Positions 49,033 through 58,934 of a stretch of 64,000 nucleotides of DNA are shown here, one piece after another. The number at the start of each line of letters is the position of its first letter. Position 1 is the first letter of the stretch. Under the pieces are notes generated by a model. That model was given only the letters and a program-made list of their open reading frames with translations, made no database searches and had not been told where the DNA came from. The stretch covers positions 1-64,000 of the forward strand of contig JAIUPA010000043.1 in NCBI GenBank assembly GCA_020161665.1. The letters run 5' to 3'. This DNA comes from Pseudomonadota bacterium (GTDB taxonomy: Bacteria > Pseudomonadota > Alphaproteobacteria > Rhizobiales > Rhizobiaceae). A program made the translations under genes and the position numbers.

Positions 49033-50856
49033 CTAGCTTCGCCCGAACAACCGCTCAATGTCGGCGAGCTTCAGTTCGATGAAGGTGGGCCGTCCGTGAT
49101 TGCACTGGCCGGAGCCGGGTGTCGCCTCCATCTGGCGCAACAGCGCATTCATCTCTTCGGCACGAAGCCGCCGCCCCGAGCGCACCGAGCCATGGCAGGC
49201 CATGGTGGCGGCCACGTAATCGAGCTTGCCGGAAAGGGTCGCCGCCGCATCCCATTCGGCAATCTCATCGGCCAACTGGCGCACCAGCCCTGCCGCATCC
49301 GTTTCGCCGAGAAGGGCGGGCGTTTCGCGAATGGCAATTGCGCCTGGACCGAAACGCTCGATGGCAAGGCCCAGCCGGTCAAATTCCGTGGCATGGTCCA
49401 TCAGCCGGTCGCAGTCTTCCTCCGGCAGGTCGACAATTTCGGGGATCAGCAGCGCCTGCGAGGCGATGCGCTTTTCGGCAAGGCCCTTGCGCAACGCCTC
49501 AAACACAAGCCGTTCATGCGCCGCGTGTTGATCGACGATCACCAGCCCGTCGCCGGTCTGCGCCACGATGTAATTGGCGTGGATCTGGGCGCGCGCCGCG
49601 CCCAGCGGAAACTGCTGAGGATCGGAAGCCGCTTCCGAAACCGCATGGTGTTCTGCCCGGTCAATGCGGGCGGATGGTTCGGCAAGCCCTTCGAACCCAT
49701 GCTGGCGGGCCGGGATAGCGGCTGCCGCCGGGCTTGCCGCCTGAGGCATGTCCATGGGACGCCAGGGCGAAGTCTCGGCGTTGAAGCGATGGGCCGGTGC
49801 CGCATGGCGCGGCGAAAAACCGGGCCGGAAGGAGGAGATCATATGGCTCGCCCCGGTCGTGGCCGCCCGGTTGCCGCCCTTGGTCAAAGCCTCGCGGATC
49901 GCCCCGATGATCAGCCCGCGAATGAGGCCCGGATCGCGAAACCGTACGTCCGATTTGGCCGGATGCACGTTGACATCGACCAGCGCCGGATCGAGCGACA
50001 GCGACAGAACCGCAACCGGGTAACGGCCATGCGGAATGGTCTCGGCATAGGCGGCGCGGATCGCCTGCAGGATCAGCTTGTCAGCCACCGGACGCCCGTT
50101 GACGAAGGCATATTGATGCGCGCCATTGCCCCGGTTGAAGGTGGGCACACCGGCATAGCCGGTCAGGGCCACATCCTCGCGCACCGCGTCAATCTCGATG
50201 GCATTGTCGCGGAAATCCGCACCCAGTACCTGCGCCATGCGCGCCAGCCGGTCCTCGCCGGTGGCGGGAAACTCCAGCACTTGCCGGTCGGAACCTGACA
50301 GTACGAAACGGATGGCCGGAAAGGCAATCGCCATGCGCTTGACGATTTCGGTAATCGCCCCGGTCTCGGCCCGCTCGGTCTTCAGGAATTTCAGGCGGGC
50401 GGGTGTGGCAAAGAACAGGTCGCGCACCTCCACCACCGTGCCGGTATTGGCCGGGGCCGGCTTGACGGGCGAGACCTGCCCGCCGGTTACGCTGACAGAC
50501 GCGCCGTCGGCGGCCCCTTGCGCCCGGCTGGTAATCGTCAGCCGCGCCACCGAACCGATGGAGGGCAGGGCCTCACCACGAAACCCGAGTGTACGAATAT
50601 CATCAAGATGCGTATCGATCTTCGAGGTGCAATGGCGCTTGACGGCGAGCGCCAGATCGTCCGCGCTCATGCCGCAGCCATTGTCGGTGATGCGCAACAG
50701 CGCCTTGCCGCCGCCCGCCGTAGCAATCTCGATGCGGGTCGCGCCCGCGTCGATGGCGTTTTCAATCAGTTCCTTGGCCGCACTTGCGGGCCGTTCGATG
50801 ACCTCGCCAGCGGCGATCTGATTGATGAGGGTTTCGGGCAAAAGCTTGATGGACAT
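49033..50856 (-). CDS. mutL: DNA mismatch repair protein MutL with endonuclease motif
   Basis: 607 aa. The GHKL ATPase half has [39 protein letters not shown] and [18 protein letters not shown] Pro/Ala-rich linker (about residues 340-410) leads to a dimerisation domain that carries [14 protein letters not shown], an exact DQHAX2EX4E metal-endonuclease motif, as in organisms without MutH. MutL links MutS mismatch recognition to strand incision. I chose ATG 50856 ([15 protein letters not shown]); ten more in-frame residues upstream lack support. It is divergent from the PAS-receiver gene across 269 bases that hold a CtrA box. Confidence 0.95.
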
Positions 50857-50946
50857 GGCGCGACTTTCCCGGATTCGCATGGCCAAGAAAAGGCAGCCGG
50901 ACCGCTACTCGCAGAAAAATCACCCGTTCTCACTTGGTCGGGACCA

Positions 50947-50962
50947 TTAAGGACGCCTTAAC
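50947..50962 (+). promoter_or_regulatory. CtrA-type binding site upstream of the PAS-receiver gene
   Basis: TTAA-GGACGCC-TTAAC is a perfect match to the full CtrA consensus TTAA-N7-TTAAC. A further TTAAC half-site starts at 50968. It lies about 165-180 bases before the start at 51126 and about 90 bases before mutL (50856) in the other direction. Confidence 0.65.
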
Positions 50963-51125
50963 GGTGTTTAACTAAGGTCAATTCAACTGAAATGGTCTTG
51001 TGACCGTCTCCGGACGGTCGTTTGCGCTCAGCCGTTTTCGTCCGGTCAGGGTTGGATGAAATCTCGAAAGGTTCATGGGGAAAATGAAGGGTTCCCGCCC
51101 GGAAGGTTCCCGCAAAGGCGTATGA

Positions 51126-52778
51126 ATGGCGGATTCGACGTCCTCAGACACGGTCATGCAGACGATCATGCTTGATGCAGTGACCGAAGGGCTGGGTGCG
51201 GCCATTTTCGTTTATGATCGCAATGATCTCCTGTGCTACGCCAGCCAGTCTGTCCTCCAGTATTTCCCCGTGCCGCGCGGCATGTTGCAGAATGGAACAC
51301 GCCTTCGCGACTTCCTCGGCGCGGTCTATGACAGCGGCATCCGCTTTGCCATCGGCGCTTCGGCAGACCGCATGGGCGGGCGCGATGGCTGGATTTCCGC
51401 GCAGATCGCCGGGCACTGGAAAGAGCGCAACGACCAGATCGAACGCTTCGGCCAGGATCGCTGGATTCGCTTCATCAAGCGCCGCATGCCGTCGGGCTTT
51501 GGCGTCTGTGTCATCAAGGATGTGAGCGAGGAAAAGAAGCGCGAGGACCAGTGGCGGCTTGATCTCGAGCGCGTGCAATTGACCGAGGAAATCCTCGAAA
51601 CCCTGCCGTTCCCCGTTTCCGTCAAGGACAAGGGCCTGAATTACGCTGCCGTCAACCGCGCCATGAGCAAGCTTTTGGGCCGCGAACCGGAAAAGATCAT
51701 TGGTCGCAACGACCGCGAACTTCTAGCCCCGGAACTGGCCACGATGTTTGAGTTGAGCGACCGGCGTGCGCTCGATAATGGCGGGCTTCTGGCCTATCCC
51801 GAGCAGATCAAGGGCTTTGGCGAAGGCCGCCCCTTCATGACGTACAAGTGGCGCGTCGGTAAACCCGGCCGCAGCTTCCTTGTGACCGTCCCGCAGGACC
51901 TGAAGGCTAACGACTCTGTTGACCTTCGCGGCCTCACCATCATGGGCGCAGGCGCCAACGCCGCCGCCGGTCAGGCCTACGCCACCGATCAGGCTTGCTC
52001 GGGCGAACGCGTGCTGCTCGTCACCGGCAATCCGGTGCTTGAAAAGCAGGCCCTGGAAACCCTGTCCCATCTGGGCTTTGACAGTTGCGCCGTGCATGAC
52101 GAGACGGAACTGGAAGCTTTCCTCACCATGGCGATAGAATCCGGCATCCATGTCGATCTGATCGTCGTGGATAGCCAGATGGAAGTGGTCTGCCTTGAAC
52201 TGGCCGACCGTTTCGGGGTGATGAGCCTGCCGCTCGATGCCTATCAGATCGCCAATCAGCTGGCCGTGGCCGTTGCCCATGCGCTGAACAGCGTCGGCAA
52301 TGATTACACCACATCAAACACATCGCGCGGCGAAGTGGTCGAGCTCGCCTTGCCGTCAGCCGGTGAATGGCAGCATGAAGGGCTGGATGTTCTGGTGGCC
52401 GAGGACAATGAGGTCAACCAGATCGTCCTGTCCCAGATCATGGAATCGCTCGGCTATGTCTACGCGATTGCCGGAACCGGGGCCGAGACGCTCCATCTCT
52501 GGCAGGAAAAACACCCGCGCGTCATTCTTCTCGATACGACCCTTCCGGATATGAGCGGTGAGGATGTGATCCGCGAAATCCGCTTCCATGAACAGGCCGG
52601 TCAGACCCGCGTTCCGGTGATTGGCGTTCTGGCCCGCGCCATGGAGGGCGACCGCGAAGCCTGCCGTCATGCGGGCATGGACGACACGCTCCTGAAGCCC
52701 TTGAGCCCCGATATGGTGGGCAACGCCATCCGCCGCTTCTTAAGCGATGCACAGGCCGTTCAGGTCAAAGGCCAATAA
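51126..52778 (+). CDS. PAS-PAS protein with two C-terminal receiver-like domains and no kinase
   Basis: 550 aa, cytosolic. An N-terminal PAS-like region (GLGAAIFVYDRNDLLCYASQ, ending VIKDVSEEKKREDQ) and a second one (ILETLPFPVSVKDKGLNYAA) sense a signal. Residues about 293-390 look like a degenerate receiver (RVLLVTGNPVLEKQALETLS, LIVVDSQMEV). The last about 125 residues form a better one: VLVAEDNEVNQIVLSQIMES, phosphoacceptor Asp in ILLDTTLPDMSGEDV, and LLKPLSPDM with its Lys. The conserved Thr/Ser of the receiver switch is Leu (VIGVLARAMEGD). No HisKA or HATPase domain is present, so a separate kinase or phosphotransferase must act on it. The CtrA box upstream hints at cell-cycle control. 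Confidence 0.85.
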   Translation: MADSTSSDTVMQTIMLDAVTEGLGAAIFVYDRNDLLCYASQSVLQYFPVPRGMLQNGTRLRDFLGAVYDSGIRFAIGASADRMGGRDGWISAQIAGHWKERNDQIERFGQDRWIRFIKRRMPSGFGVCVIKDVSEEKKREDQWRLDLERVQLTEEILETLPFPVSVKDKGLNYAAVNRAMSKLLGREPEKIIGRNDRELLAPELATMFELSDRRALDNGGLLAYPEQIKGFGEGRPFMTYKWRVGKPGRSFLVTVPQDLKANDSVDLRGLTIMGAGANAAAGQAYATDQACSGERVLLVTGNPVLEKQALETLSHLGFDSCAVHDETELEAFLTMAIESGIHVDLIVVDSQMEVVCLELADRFGVMSLPLDAYQIANQLAVAVAHALNSVGNDYTTSNTSRGEVVELALPSAGEWQHEGLDVLVAEDNEVNQIVLSQIMESLGYVYAIAGTGAETLHLWQEKHPRVILLDTTLPDMSGEDVIREIRFHEQAGQTRVPVIGVLARAMEGDREACRHAGMDDTLLKPLSPDMVGNAIRRFLSDAQAVQVKGQ

Positions 52779-52974: not shown

Positions 52975-54879
52975 TCAGATGAAGACGTGCGTTCCCATTT
53001 CCACAACACGGTTAGCCGGCAGGCGGAAGTAATCCGAAGGGTCGGCCGCCGTTTCGGCCAGCGCGATGAACAGCGTGCTTTGCCAGCCGGGCATGGCCGA
53101 TTTCGGGTCCTGCACCAGCTTGCGCCGTCCCAGATAGAACGAGGTGGACATGATGTCGAACTTCAGCCCGCTCTTGCGCAATTGCCCGAGCGCCTGCGAG
53201 ATGTTCTGCGTTTCCATGTAGCCGAAGCGCAGCTCCACACGGCTGAACCGTTCCGAAATCTTGGCAATCACGTAAGGCGGCTCGTTGCCGATGCGCGGCA
53301 CGTTGAGCGCCCTGACCGTCAGGATAATGTTTTGCGAATGCAGGACGTGATTGTGCTTGATGTTATGCAGCAGGGCCGCCGGCGCATAATCCGGGTCCGA
53401 CGTCAGGAAGATGGCCGTGCCGGGGATCTGTGTCGGCGCGTGCGAACTGGGCTTCTCGATGGAGGTGGCGAACGCCTCCATCGGCACGTCGGTGCGCCGT
53501 GTCTTGGCGAGCAGAATGGAAGTGCCGCGCTGCCACGTCCACATGATGACGGTAAAGCCGGCGGCAAAGAGAACCGGAATATAGCCGCCATCGTGGATCT
53601 TGAAGAGGTTCGCGCCGAGGAACACCATTTCCAGAACGATGAAGGGCGAAAGCGCCAGAAGCGTCAGGAAACGCGGCCAGCGCCAGACCGAGCGCAGGAA
53701 CTCGAAGAACATGATGGTCGTCACCACCATGGCGCCCGTCACCGAGATGCCATAGGCAGTCGCGAGCTTTTCCGAGCTGCCGAAACTCATCACCAGTGCC
53801 ACAACGCCGACCAGAAGCAGCGTGTTGACGGCAGGCAGGAAGATCTGCCCCGTATTGGTTTCAGACGTGAAGAGGATCGTCATGCGCGGCAGGAAGCCCA
53901 GGTGGATCGCCTGGCTTACCAGCGAGAAGGCCCCGGTGATCACCGCCTGGCTGGCGATGATGGTGGCAATCGTTGCCAGCAGCACGACCGGCAGCAGGCT
54001 CCATTCCGGGAACATCAGGAAGAACGGGTCGGACATGTGTTCGGGCTGGTGCAGCACCATGGCACCTTGCCCGAGATAGTTCAGTGTCAGCGCCGGAAAA
54101 ACGAGGATGAACCAGGCGATCTGGATCGGCTTGCGTCCGAAATGGCCAAGGTCCGCATAAAGCGCCTCCGCCCCGGTCACGGTCAGGAACACCGCGCCCA
54201 GAACGATGATGCCGAGCCAGCCTTCCTCAAGCAGGAAGCTGACCGCATGGACCGGATTGAAAGCATTGAGAATGCCGTAATCGTCGGAAATATGGATGAT
54301 CCCGCCCCAGGCCATCACGATGAACCACAGCGCCGTGATCGGTCCGAAGACGAAGGAGATGGCGCCGGTCCCGCGCGACTGGACGAGAAACAGCCCGACC
54401 AGAATGGCGAGCGTGATCGGCAGGATGTAATCGCCAAAGGTCGGGTAAACGAGCTTGAGACCCTCCACCGCCGAAAGCACGGAGAGGGCGGGGGTGATCA
54501 TGGCGTCACCCAGAAACAGCGCGGCACCGATCAGGCCGAGAACCATCAAAACAGCGGCGTGCGGCGCATGCTTCTTCTTCAGAAGGGCCAGCAGCGACAG
54601 CGTGCCGCCTTCGCCATTGTTGTCGGCGCGCAGCAGGAAAAGCACGTATTTGATCGTCACGATCACGATCAGTGTCCAGATGATCAGCGAGGTCAGGCTG
54701 ATGATTTCCTCGCGCACCAGACCGTCGTGGGAGATCGGCTTCAGCGCTTCACGAAAGGCGTAAAGCGGGCTGGTGCCGATGTCGCCGTAAACGATACCGA
54801 TCGAACCCAGCGTGGCGGCGGCAAGGCCGCGCATGCTGTTGGAACCGTGGTTCGGGTGTTGTTCAACTTCAGGATTCAT
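52975..54879 (-). CDS. kup: KUP-family potassium uptake protein
   Basis: 634 aa. The hallmark [20 protein letters not shown] begins the first helix; [20 protein letters not shown] and [20 protein letters not shown] are further KUP landmarks. About twelve hydrophobic helices are followed by a cytosolic C-terminal domain (from [20 protein letters not shown]). Kup imports K+ with protons. ATG 54879 ([12 protein letters not shown]) is preferred; GTG 54888 would start 6 bases after the corA stop. It follows corA on the same strand, making a corA-kup cation-transport pair. The stop codon lies inside a hairpin duplicated on the far side of a RIME-like element. Confidence 0.94.
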
Positions 54880-54894
54880 GGGGTCCACAGGCTC

Positions 54895-55872
54895 TTAGAG
54901 CCAGCCTTTCCAGCGAAAGACATAGAAGGGAACGATTGCCGAGACGAGCATCAGGGCAAGGGCAAGAGGATAGCCGAAATGCAGGTTGAGCTCCGGCATG
55001 AACTGGAAATTCATGCCGTAGATCGAGGCCACCAGCGTCGGCGGCAGGAAGACCACCGAGGCAATGGAGAAAATCTTGATGATCGCGTTCTGCTCGACAT
55101 TGATGAGGCCGAGCGAGGCATCCAGCAGAAAGCTGATATTGGTGCCAAGGAAGGCCGCATGTTCGGAAAGACTGTGCACATCGCGCGCCACGGTCTGGCA
55201 AAGCTCATGCGCCTCGGCATCCTTTTGCAGGGCAGGGCGGCCCGAAAGATAACCGAGCAGACGTGAAAGCGACATCAGGCTGTCGCGTACCTTGGAGACC
55301 ATGCGGTGATGGGTTGCCACATCCATCAGCCGGTCTTCCAGATAGCGCGGCGGGCGGCGCTTGCCGCGGCTGCCTTCGCCGAAGACCTGCGTTGAAAGCA
55401 TGTCCATCTTCTGAACGGTCTGCTCCAGAATCTCGGCCGTGCGGTCGGAAATCGTTTCCAGAAGCCGGGCGAGCATCATCGTTCCGTTCCGGCTTTCCTC
55501 CGGCTGGCGCTGCAAGGCGGCCACGAACAGGCGGAAGGCGCGCGGATCGCCATAGCGGATGGTGATCAGCCGGTTGCCGGTCAGGATGAAGGAAATGTCG
55601 GTGATTTCCGGCGTATCCGTGTCGGATTTCCACACCAGAGACGCGGTCATATAGGTCGTGCCGTTCTCCGAATAGAGCCGGCTCGACGGTTCGATGTCCT
55701 TCAGGTCGTCGCGCGTCGGCAGTGAAATGCCCAGCAACTGCTCCAGATAGGTCTCTTCTTCGTGGCTGGGACACAGAAGATCGATCCAGCTGATATCAGC
55801 GGGAAGCGACGACAGGGGATTTTCGGGGGATAGCCGCACCGCGGCACTATTCATGCCGTAAGCATCGATCAA
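54895..55872 (-). CDS. corA: CorA-family Mg2+ (divalent cation) channel
   Basis: 325 aa: a large cytosolic N-terminal funnel domain (ISWIDLLCPSHEEETYLEQL, ITDISFILTGNRLITIRYGD), a long helix region (RTAEILEQTVQKMDMLSTQV, HHRMVSKVRDSLMSLSRLLG), then two C-terminal helices around the universal selectivity motif in LVASIYGMNFQFMPEL. The tail ends FYVFRWKGWL. CorA pentamers conduct Mg2+, Co2+ or Ni2+ into the cytoplasm. It is first in a corA-kup pair, with a TTAA-N7-TTAA string 75 bases upstream that I consider more likely part of the mrp terminator hairpin. Confidence 0.94.
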   Translation of the reverse strand: MIDAYGMNSAAVRLSPENPLSSLPADISWIDLLCPSHEEETYLEQLLGISLPTRDDLKDIEPSSRLYSENGTTYMTASLVWKSDTDTPEITDISFILTGNRLITIRYGDPRAFRLFVAALQRQPEESRNGTMMLARLLETISDRTAEILEQTVQKMDMLSTQVFGEGSRGKRRPPRYLEDRLMDVATHHRMVSKVRDSLMSLSRLLGYLSGRPALQKDAEAHELCQTVARDVHSLSEHAAFLGTNISFLLDASLGLINVEQNAIIKIFSIASVVFLPPTLVASIYGMNFQFMPELNLHFGYPLALALMLVSAIVPFYVFRWKGWL

Positions 55873-55936
55873 GCGATTACATAGCTCCGCTGCCGCTCAG
55901 ACGGCTGCTGTATTAAGGCTTTTCCGTGGCAACGGG

Positions 55937-55970
55937 AAGCCCCTCCTTAAGAATAGGTTAAGAAGGGCTT
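55937..55970 (-). terminator. Hairpin after mrp
   Basis: AAGCCC...GGGCTT encloses a second stem CTTAA/TTAAG, 4 bases past the mrp stop. No T run is present. The inner stem creates a TTAA-N7-TTAA string at 55947-55961 that could be misread as a CtrA box. Confidence 0.45.
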
Positions 55971-55973
55971 GCC

Positions 55974-57104
55974 CTATTCGAAAACGATGCTGGGGGCGCT
56001 CGGCAGTACCGAACCACCCAACGAGGCTGAAACCCGCTCGGCAATCGAGCGGTAGGTTTTGGCCTGCTCGCTCTCCGGCGCATCGACGACAACCGGGCGG
56101 CCAAGGTCCGACAATTCGCGGATCGTCATGGTCAGCGGAACCTCGCCCAGGAAGGGCACGCCAATCCGCTCGGCTTCCGCCTTCGCACCGCCATGGCCGA
56201 AAATGTCGTAGCGATTGCCGGTATCCGGCGCGATGAAATAGCTCATGTTTTCGACGATGCCGAGCACGGGGATCTGCACCTTGTTGAACATGGTGATGGC
56301 CTTGCGGGCATCAATCAGCGCCAGATCCTGCGGCGTGGACACCACGACAGCACCCGCCAGCGGCACCTGCTGCGCCATGGTCAGCTGCACATCGCCGGTG
56401 CCCGGCGGCATGTCGACCACCAGCACGTCGAGATCGCCCCAGGCCACTTCGCGCAGCATCTGCAGAAGGGCGGACTGCACCATCGGGCCGCGCCAGATCA
56501 TCGCCGCGCTCTCATCAACAAGGAAGCCCATCGACATGACCTTGATGCCATAATTTTCCATCGGCACGATGATGCGATTGTCGATCTGCTGCGGGCGACC
56601 GGAAATGCCCATAAGGCGCGGCAGCGACGGGCCGTAAATATCCGCGTCGAGCAGGCCAACCTTCAGGCCATTGGCCTTGAGCGCCAGCGCCAGATTGACC
56701 GACGTGGTGGATTTACCGACGCCGCCCTTGCCAGACGCCACGGCAATGATCGTCTTGATGCCGGGAATGCCGGGCTTGGACGTTTGCGCCGGAACCGCTT
56801 GCGGAGCAGCCGGGGCGGCTTTGGCGGCGGCGGGGCGATCCGAAGGGGCGGCCTTGCGATCAGCCGTCAGCGCCACGACCGCGCCACGCACGCCGGGCAG
56901 GCCCTTCACGATCTTTTCCGCCGAAGCCCGCAGCGGCTCCAGTTCGCGTGCCCGTTCCGCCGGGACGGTAATCGAGAAATAGACCTTGCCATCGGAAATG
57001 AAGACATCGGACACCAGACCGCTGGCGACAATATCCTTGCCGACGCCGGGTACGGAAAGGCTCGAAAGGGCCTTCAGGACATCATTGCTGGTAATCGTTG
57101 CCAT
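55974..57104 (-). CDS. Mrp/ApbC/NBP35-family Fe-S cluster carrier ATPase, without the CxxC motif
   Basis: 376 aa: an N-terminal MIP18/DUF59 domain (DVLKALSSLSVPGVGKDIVA), an Ala/Pro/Lys linker, and the deviant Walker A P-loop ATPase (IAVASGKGGVGKSTTSVNLA, about residue 118), with DADIYGPSLPRLMGI and DMPPGTGDVQLTMAQQVPLA. At the position where many Mrp proteins have CPHC, this one reads YFIAPDTGNRYDIFG, so the cluster-bridging CxxC is absent. The same replacement is, to my knowledge, common in Rhizobiales. The protein probably delivers or scaffolds Fe-S clusters, or has diverged. It is monocistronic. Confidence 0.92.
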   Translation of the reverse strand: MATITSNDVLKALSSLSVPGVGKDIVASGLVSDVFISDGKVYFSITVPAERARELEPLRASAEKIVKGLPGVRGAVVALTADRKAAPSDRPAAAKAAPAAPQAVPAQTSKPGIPGIKTIIAVASGKGGVGKSTTSVNLALALKANGLKVGLLDADIYGPSLPRLMGISGRPQQIDNRIIVPMENYGIKVMSMGFLVDESAAMIWRGPMVQSALLQMLREVAWGDLDVLVVDMPPGTGDVQLTMAQQVPLAGAVVVSTPQDLALIDARKAITMFNKVQIPVLGIVENMSYFIAPDTGNRYDIFGHGGAKAEAERIGVPFLGEVPLTMTIRELSDLGRPVVVDAPESEQAKTYRSIAERVSASLGGSVLPSAPSIVFE

Positions 57105-57527
57105 GCTGCATGCCTCACATCATTTCAGGAACCCGGCAGAAAACCCGGTCGGGGAGGCAACCTGTAACTGCCATATGGCAATCGTCAATGGAGAAAATGA
57201 GGTGCGACAAGCTTGCGCAGGTCTGCCAGAAAAGAAACCGCCGCTGCGAGGTTCGTTGAATGACCTCAGCGAGCGGCGATATTCTTGCGCTTCGATTTTT
57301 CGATGCGTCTTGCGTCCCCTCTGGACTTGGCGACTTACATGCATGTGCTGTGCCAGTTTTGGCGTGGCTGCAAAAGAAGCGGGAATCCCGGCCTCTGGAC
57401 CGCTCCCTTTCGGAATGCGTCGCATTCACGATATTGCGATGCACATAAAAAATGCACATGGTGACCGCGCGAAAAGCCAGCTGCGCAAAAATTGACCTTG
57501 CGCAATATGCAGGCAATCCTCCCGCCA
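57105..57527. other. 423-base non-coding interval between mrp and the GGDEF/EAL gene
   Basis: An open frame of 137 codons exists on the minus strand (57115-57528), but its residue mix (Cys, Arg and Ser-rich, no domain) and lack of a ribosome site argue against a gene. Composition is slightly poorer in GC than in the neighbouring genes. TTGCGCAA, a perfect palindrome, occurs at about 57499-57506, with TGCGCAA 10 bases before it. The mrp promoter must lie in this interval; I could not place it with confidence. Confidence 0.5.
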
Positions 57528-58889
57528 TTATTCCATACGTTCGCGCAGTCTGGCTTCCGGATGGTTGCTTTCGAGATAGGCGAGCGCCGTGGCCGCATCC
57601 GTCGGCTTGCCGAAGAGGTAGCCCTGACCCAGCTTGCAGCCGAGCGCTTTGAGCATCATCGCTTCAATATCCGTTTCGATGCCTTCTGCCACCACCGTCA
57701 GGTCCAGACCGTCACACATGGTAATGATGGCGCGGATAATATGCTCGCTGGCCCGGTCGGTGGCGATGCGCGAAACAAAGGCGCGGTCGATCTTCACCTT
57801 GTCGAAGGTAAAGTCACGCAGGCGCCCGAGGCTCGACTGGCCGGTGCCAAAGTCATCTAGCGAAATGCGAACGCCAGCGGCGCGAAGATCGGCAATGATC
57901 TTGTGGGCCGTATCGGCGCTTGTCATCACCGCCGTTTCGGTGATTTCCATCTCCACCCGGTTGGGATCAAGGCCGACGCGGCGCAAGATGGTGAGGATAT
58001 TGCCCGCCGTGCCGGGGTCCATCAATTGCGCCGAGGACAGGTTGAAGGACAGGAACATGTCGCGCGGCCAGGAGAGCGCCGCTTCAGCGGCCTTGCGCAA
58101 CAGCGTTTCCGAAAGCATGTCGATAAAACCGCGCTCTTCGGCCAGCGGCACGAAGACAGAGGGCGAAACGAAGCCGAGATCCGGATCGATCCAGCGGGCC
58201 AGCGCCTCGAAGCCCACCGGAACGCCATCGGAAATGCGCACGATGGGCTGGAAATGCACATCCACCGCATCGGTGATGATGGCATTGCGCAGCGTCTGCT
58301 CCAGCTGGGTGGCGCGCTTCATTTCCAGCGCGATTTCCTGCGAATAGACGGTGATCTGGCCGCGACCGCGCCGCTTGGAGCGGTAAAGGGCGGTTTCGGC
58401 ACTCTTTAAAAGGTCTTCGAACTCTTCGCCCGCGAAGGGATAGACGGCAAAGCCGAACGACGCTGAAAGGCGCACATTGCGGTCGCCAAGATCATAAGGG
58501 GCTGACAGCACCTCACGCATCATCTGGCCGATCTTTTCCGCGCCGCCGCGTTCAAAGACCAGCGGCAGGATGAAGGCAAATTCGTCGCCATCGTGACGTG
58601 TCACCGTCGCGCCGTCCGGAATGCAGGCCTTGAGGCGATGGGCCACCTGACACAGGATTTCATCGCCCGCCGCTGTCCCGAAAAGGTCGTTGATCGGCTT
58701 GAACCCGTCGAGATTGGCAATGCCGATGGTAAAGGGGGCCGGATCATCGGCGCGCTCGCTCGCCAGTTGGCGCACCCTGTCGCGCAGGCGGTAGCGATTC
58801 CCGAGGCCTGTCAGCGGATCGGTATAGGCCATAGTCTGTAGTTCATGCTGGCTGGGCGATGCTCCCAGCGGCGGCGTAGCCGGCTTCAT
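57528..58889 (-). CDS. GGDEF/EAL protein: probable c-di-GMP phosphodiesterase with degenerate GGDEF
   Basis: 453 aa with no membrane segment and only a short N-terminus. The GGDEF domain begins AYTDPLTGLGNRYRLRDRVR, and its active-site loop reads RHDGDEFAFIL, DGDEF where GGDEF is canonical. The EAL domain has VGFEALARWIDPDLG (EAL), EMEITETAVM, ISLDDFGTGQSSLGRLRDF, FDKVKIDRAFV and TVVAEGIET, all catalytic and metal motifs of an active phosphodiesterase. I infer that it degrades c-di-GMP and that the GGDEF half is inactive or weak. ATG 58889 has GAGGAA 6 bases upstream. A near-consensus CtrA box lies about 46 bases before the start. Confidence 0.9.
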   Translation of the reverse strand: MKPATPPLGASPSQHELQTMAYTDPLTGLGNRYRLRDRVRQLASERADDPAPFTIGIANLDGFKPINDLFGTAAGDEILCQVAHRLKACIPDGATVTRHDGDEFAFILPLVFERGGAEKIGQMMREVLSAPYDLGDRNVRLSASFGFAVYPFAGEEFEDLLKSAETALYRSKRRGRGQITVYSQEIALEMKRATQLEQTLRNAIITDAVDVHFQPIVRISDGVPVGFEALARWIDPDLGFVSPSVFVPLAEERGFIDMLSETLLRKAAEAALSWPRDMFLSFNLSSAQLMDPGTAGNILTILRRVGLDPNRVEMEITETAVMTSADTAHKIIADLRAAGVRISLDDFGTGQSSLGRLRDFTFDKVKIDRAFVSRIATDRASEHIIRAIITMCDGLDLTVVAEGIETDIEAMMLKALGCKLGQGYLFGKPTDAATALAYLESNHPEARLRERME

Positions 58890-58934
58890 TCCGTTTCCTC
58901 GTTTCCGTGGCACCCGCGATTATCCATGCTGCAC

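Follow-up and report, generated by a model that had tools for sequence, protein, structure and literature searches.

The window, by which we mean the whole 64,000-nucleotide stretch of DNA analysed here, contains a gene whose product joins two PAS domains to two receiver folds (the PAS-REC gene), and a putative CtrA box lies in front of it. Its divergent neighbour is a gene that we take, from its sequence, to be mutL. Downstream, beyond a block of genes that are presumably kup, corA and mrp, a gene for a GGDEF-EAL protein lies on the opposite strand.

Table 1 Features of the PAS-REC locus in the window.
Feature	Position	Strand	Remarks
Predicted CtrA box TTAA-N7-TTAAC, TTAAGGACGCCTTAAC	50947..50962	+	179 nt 5' of start codon; conserved
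Extra TTAAC half-site	50968..50972	+	Not conserved
PAS-PAS-pseudoreceiver-receiver (PAS-REC) gene	51126..52778	+	550 aa; kinase domain absent
PAS domain 1 (PAS_7, residues 25-140)	51198..51545	+	Pfam 32.3 bits, cut-off 27
PAS domain 2 (residues about 154-256; PAS_4 157-238)	51585..51893	+	Pfam 38.6 bits, cut-off 23.1
Predicted pseudo-receiver REC1 (residues 293-395)	52002..52310	+	From models; VIA Z 11.0-13.4; D349 in 104/105
Receiver REC2 (residues 422-535)	52389..52730	+	Response_reg; E426, D427, D470, K524 invariant; L502, T521 at switch positions
GGDEF-EAL protein, 461 aa	57528..58913	-	Pfam EAL 230 bits, GGDEF 119 bits; synteny
mutL (presumed), divergent neighbour	49033..50859	-	Synteny
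kup-corA-mrp block (presumed names), between the putative ancestral partners in the window's genus	52975..57104	-	Synteny

Domain anatomy of the PAS-REC protein

The first-pass annotation, made from the letters of the DNA, had described two PAS-like regions, a degenerate receiver and a nearly canonical receiver, and this layout holds up. Both PAS regions exceed the Pfam cut-offs of their families (PAS_7 and PAS_4), and REC2 matches Response_reg (PF00072) with 73.3 bits against a cut-off of 30.2. The absence of a kinase domain was borne out as well: the HMM check for a hidden HATPase domain was run, and Pfam found neither HisKA nor HATPase in the protein at E<=1. Since two PAS and two receiver folds fill all 550 residues of the AlphaFold model, there is no space for a kinase core, and a hidden HATPase domain is ruled out on both counts. 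With HisKA and HATPase_c absent, the protein does not qualify as a hybrid histidine kinase.

The model was built from 27 aligned orthologs and reached a mean pLDDT of 79.8 with a pTM of 0.35, so that the arrangement of the domains in the full-length model is untrustworthy. It contains two PAS folds linked by a helix (residues 134-159), then a beta-alpha fold of four units (295-394) and, at 422-549, a receiver fold that is complete. Modelled by itself, REC1 again gave a four-unit beta-alpha fold (pLDDT 91.1), and the solved structures among its best 50 matches were mostly receivers (VIA Z 11.0-13.4, rmsd mostly 1.6-2.8). Foldseek alone returned no match for the REC1 model at E<=0.001, and Pfam gave no significant receiver match for REC1 or the region between PAS2 and REC2, including in the five orthologs tested; the fold assignment therefore rests on models. 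REC1 is one beta-alpha unit short and has lost the acidic pair; in 104/105 distinct orthologs, it still has an Asp (D349) where the phospho-site would be. As far as the models go, the description of REC1 as a degenerate receiver appears right.

The CtrA box and the gene that it probably serves

The box and the additional half-site that had been reported upstream of the gene are both present; only the former proved to be conserved. We collected 107 ortholog upstream regions of 420 nt each (110 loci minus ten duplicates, plus the window and six further loci) and found TTAA-N7-TTAA in 103 of these 107 rows, or 101/105 distinct upstream regions, where the chance expectation for one upstream at this base composition is about 0.002. 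Spacers of 3, 4, 5, 6, 8, 9, 10, 11 and 12 nt occurred 0 or 1 times each, and three of the four box-less rows carry a one-mismatch version at the same place. When the proteins were clustered at 70% identity, the box was present in 19/19 clusters with an upstream. The extra TTAAC clear of the box was seen in the window only, among nine orthologs compared.

The window has two copies of TTAA-N7-TTAA, where shuffled sequences give an expectation of 0.06. The second site (55947-55961) lies 75 nt 5' of a corA-like gene and is absent there in the Allorhizobium borbori locus (L038). The longer TTAA-N7-TTAAC occupies 19 places in the 3.39-Mb genome, with 26 strand hits against 10 for the reversed-pattern control. 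At 15 of the 18 other places (20 ORFs; L049, L061 and L063 left out), one flagellin gene and one gene for an OmpR-type regulator fit a CtrA regulon, and most of the remaining genes were undiagnostic or had no match. The flagellin gene (L057 528-1460) adjoins its TTAA-N7-TTAAC site, as expected of the regulon. Near phoB-phoU genes of the same genome lies a gene for a 174-aa protein that we presume to be GcrA-like (L005 456-980).

The box sits in a divergent promoter region and is closer to mutL (about 102 nt), and so might serve mutL and not the PAS-REC gene. We surveyed mutL promoters in 30 of the 39 mutL matches, which were fetched; the box was present in 6/7 promoters where a PAS-REC gene adjoins, in 0/1 where it is farther off, and in 0/22 from genomes without the PAS-REC gene (two of these 22 upstreams being short, at 144 and 364 nt). 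Three PAS-REC genes that do not adjoin mutL keep the box (L195, L178, L046), and at two mutL/GGDEF-EAL loci without a PAS-REC gene it is absent within 14 kb. The box as a mutL element is largely refuted, since it follows the PAS-REC gene instead, and we find that assignment scarcely credible. A CtrA gene is present in the genome, its product scoring 423.5 bits with NF045991 (cut-off 350), and ChpT is encoded beside it, in agreement with the alphaproteobacterial cell-cycle setting that had been proposed. CtrA control of the PAS-REC gene is well supported by sequence conservation of the box, to which CtrA would bind in this species.

A counterpart of the gene may already be known in Sinorhizobium meliloti. 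One genus in our sample (g62) is taken to be Sinorhizobium because a 6-kb stretch of pSymB from S. meliloti 1021 has a match at E<=1e-150 in 27/33 of its genomes; one of them (G272) has about 96% DNA identity to pSymB over the stretch tested. Its PAS-REC ortholog has the box at -273 and keeps the switch Thr, where the window copy has Leu, and it overlaps the GGDEF-EAL gene by 4 nt (start codon picked by inspection), while the window copy is no longer in that operon. In excerpts of two papers, SMc00888 encodes a two-component receiver protein, shares with SMc00887 an operon of unknown function that is likened to pleD-divK, and depends on CtrA, CbrA and PodJ (PMC4414408, PMC11500502). It has a CtrA motif, with 5'-UTR probes at -236 to -188 (PMC4414408), and CtrA binding, CtrA-dependent transcription in vivo and a proposed role in c-di-GMP are described in the available parts of PMC11500502. 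In the same source, SMc00888::GUS in a cbrA mutant is decreased according to the text and increased according to the figure legend; given this conflict, we rely on PMC11500502 only for SMc00888 (with SMc00887) being CtrA- and CbrA-regulated. Matched by context and not by sequence, SMc00888 is very probably the ortholog of the window gene. Searching papers for the neighbouring SMc locus tags turned up nothing connecting SMc00888 with mutL. As SMc00888 is already published as CtrA-regulated, our claim of CtrA control is not new in kind; for the kinase deletion, the receiver switch loss and the conserved pairing with an EAL enzyme, we found no description among the open-licence PMC papers searched.

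Putative partner gene, distribution and origin

In 104/110 loci, the next homologue to follow downstream is the GGDEF-EAL gene, and in all 104 of these it shares its strand with the PAS-REC gene. All six exceptions belong to the window's genus, in which kup and relatives intervene and the GGDEF-EAL gene is inverted: through an inversion (52975-58913), the two genes now stand 4.7 kb apart on opposite strands. There is no CtrA box upstream of the window's GGDEF-EAL gene, and with the genes split in this way, joint action in this genus must do without co-transcription. The synteny suggests that the two were ancestral operon partners. Among 41 relatives, the GGDEF-EAL gene occurs in 16 and the PAS-REC gene in 9, all 9 also carrying the GGDEF-EAL gene (hypergeometric 3e-5, with no correction for descent), and in 7 of the 16 the GGDEF-EAL gene stands without a PAS-REC gene.

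Both the EALxR and the DDFGTG motifs are found in 105/105 GGDEF-EAL homologues, and the canonical GGDEF motif is found in 18/105, DGDEF being the commonest form. Since the EAL motifs are invariant and the GGDEF motif is mostly degenerate, the protein is likelier to act as a c-di-GMP phosphodiesterase.

The slot in front of homologous GGDEF-EAL genes is filled differently in some relatives. In one (G003), it is occupied by a complete 1015-aa kinase with the layout PAS-HisKA-HATPase-REC-REC (L216 5483-8530), and this pair may picture the ancestral arrangement; in another (G023), the slot is taken by a receiver on its own, whose switch Thr is canonical (L217 6061-6609). Receivers thus recur next to the GGDEF-EAL enzyme, although the preceding gene is unrelated in G009 and G012 and encodes no receiver in G004 and G014.

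A first scan of genome contigs with the single protein as query gave no match. We then used a nine-row profile, which matched 123/297 sampled genomes of the family (presumably GTDB Rhizobiaceae) at E<=1e-60. By our reading of the match table, 75/297 have an ortholog aligned across both its PAS and its receiver regions (in one of these the match covers only 14-380, and in another it is split in two); in the other scoring genomes, the match is confined to the REC-REC tail of hybrid kinases. Carriers include Allorhizobium borbori and Ectorhizobium quercum (both with the window's genus code), many Rhizobium, Neorhizobium and Shinella; among 16 genomes of other families, none gave a full-length match. 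In one E. quercum assembly (G001), flagged as 9% contaminated, two contigs each carry the locus (L039, L040), with identical match figures; this could be either assembly redundancy or a real duplication. Compared with A. borbori, the differences at the three codon positions are 0.29, 0.26 and 0.52; judged from the sequences, the PAS-REC gene is under constraint in the window's genus, also with the operon split.

The same genome encodes a 1254-aa PAS-HisKA-HATPase-REC-REC kinase of the BarA/ArcB type, whose REC-REC tail is 31% identical to the window protein over 292 columns and whose PAS domains include a homologous PAS_7-PAS_4 pair. That kinase has additional PAS domains and a HisKA-HATPase core, which is missing from the window protein. 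The simplest reading would be that the PAS-REC protein is a hybrid kinase minus its middle, kinase core included. The first-pass annotation had missed that the gene belongs to an old, widespread Rhizobiaceae family, that a GGDEF-EAL gene with an intact EAL site is its probable ancestral operon partner, and that SMc00888 is its probable counterpart.

Receiver chemistry and a possible feedback loop

The phospho-site of REC2 is invariant: E426, D427, D470 and K524 are present in 105/105 distinct orthologs, D470 being the Asp that had been placed near residue 468. The Pfam score, the fold, the acidic pair, the phospho-Asp and the Lys are all those of a receiver. At the switch, the Leu noted earlier at the Thr position is L502, and T521 occupies the aromatic/His position, so the window REC2 lacks the usual Thr/Ser and aromatic (or His) combination. 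Of the 105 distinct orthologs, 79 have Leu at position 502, 18 have Thr and 8 have another residue; position 521 varies together with it (Leu-Val in 77/105, Thr with Tyr or His in 17/105). That most orthologs, the window's included, are without both switch residues counts against an ordinary phosphorylation-driven output. The pairing of the two positions is suggestive, though not proof, of real covariation: on a quick maximum-likelihood tree of the 105 orthologs, Thr/not-Thr at 502 changes at least 3 times and one of three independent pairs is informative, and therefore the Leu/Val pairing is not strong independent evidence.

An invariant phospho-site beside a switch pair that is so often Leu/Val is what one would expect if phosphate capture alone mattered. 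REC2 would then be the phosphate sink or adaptor that the first-pass annotation had considered possible, taking phosphate from CckA, from ChpT or from a kinase of the PdhS type and having no output of its own. We consider this quite unlikely, as the covariation comes from few events and as the PAS domains and the GGDEF-EAL neighbour would be left unexplained.

Several known proteins resemble this one in part. PleD (REC-pseudoREC-GGDEF), from the divK-pleD operon, has two receivers in tandem, of which one is degenerate, and is connected with the cell cycle and with c-di-GMP metabolism. The window protein likewise has tandem receivers with one degenerate; in PleD, however, the receivers and GGDEF share one chain. 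At our locus, the receivers belong to one protein and the c-di-GMP enzyme, of the GGDEF-EAL kind, is another; the receiver protein has PAS domains in addition, and its pseudo-receiver precedes the true one. DivL is a PAS-rich protein of the CtrA pathway that has no kinase activity and carries a pseudo-kinase core after its PAS domains; no such core was found in the window protein by Pfam or in the model. DivK is a single-domain receiver and the window protein is multidomain, so it is not a DivK. A DivK-like receiver is encoded separately, in front of a GGDEF gene on G000:C24.

ShkA of Caulobacter is similar in fold, with a pseudo-receiver followed by a true receiver, and full-length ShkA ranked fourth in Foldseek for the window-protein model. 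It differs in having a kinase core, and the linker motif DDR, its c-di-GMP motif, was found in 1/105 members of our family. In REC1 and the linker, no Arg or Tyr is conserved in 90 or more of the 105. The pseudo-receiver of ShkA binds c-di-GMP, as given in the available part of PMC8534201, and REC1 could by analogy sense c-di-GMP and feed back on the GGDEF-EAL enzyme. With conserved arginines absent and DDR so rare, such binding seems very improbable from the sequences.

The main rival is direct inhibition of CckA or another histidine kinase, with the protein docking on the kinase core and blocking autophosphorylation as negative feedback. Osp and FixT, receiver-like proteins controlled by the systems that they regulate, give the precedent: in Rhodobacter sphaeroides, Osp is CtrA-activated and inhibits CckA directly, according to excerpts of PMC9430884. 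The window gene fits in bearing receivers, a conserved CtrA box and a degenerate switch. However, Osp and FixT are single domains that have lost the acidic pair and are not phosphorylated, and Osp is reported absent from other alphaproteobacterial genera, again in those excerpts (PMC9430884), whereas the acidic pair and the rest of the phospho-site are invariant here. The tie to the GGDEF-EAL gene would also stay unexplained, and on balance we hold this alternative to be unlikely.

Instead, we favour a model in which a CtrA-induced, kinase-deleted hybrid relays a signal in trans to the GGDEF-EAL phosphodiesterase and so feeds back on CtrA through c-di-GMP; this may well hold, though we would not yet call it probable. 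CtrA~P would bind the TTAA-N7-TTAA box and induce the PAS-REC gene. The product would be soluble, a remnant of a hybrid histidine kinase with PAS domains, having retained the PAS_7-PAS_4 pair and the REC-REC tail when the HisKA-HATPase core was lost. The PAS pair may sense a ligand, dimerise or both, REC1 may be a structural linker, and REC2, as its invariant site suggests, would receive phosphate in trans from a kinase or an HPt protein. The PAS-REC protein would then act in trans on the GGDEF-EAL protein, a contact suggested by gene neighbourhood; neighbourhood does not equal interaction, and this counts against the partner step. Because CckA of S. meliloti switches from kinase to phosphatase under the action of c-di-GMP (excerpts of PMC11500502), adjusting the phosphodiesterase could feed back on CtrA via c-di-GMP and CckA, with a sign that the model can only presume. 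Of these steps, only CtrA induction and the domain anatomy are well supported, and the rest we infer. A bolder version, which we regard as rather doubtful, is a CtrA - c-di-GMP - CckA loop peculiar to Rhizobiaceae that runs through a gutted kinase, rewired to accept phosphate and to govern a c-di-GMP phosphodiesterase dedicated to it. In Rhizobium-type lineages, the receiver, with Leu/Val for the Thr/aromatic switch and its phospho-site retained, would signal by phosphate occupancy and not by a conformational switch.

If the family is indeed that of SMc00888/SMc00887, then conservation of the box, loss of the kinase core and an invariant EAL site would together make it possible to test directly a loop leading from CtrA to c-di-GMP and on to CtrA again. 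Such a loop, if true, would span many rhizobial genera, and its REC2 would be a natural case of a receiver that retains its phosphate chemistry after loss of the switch residues.
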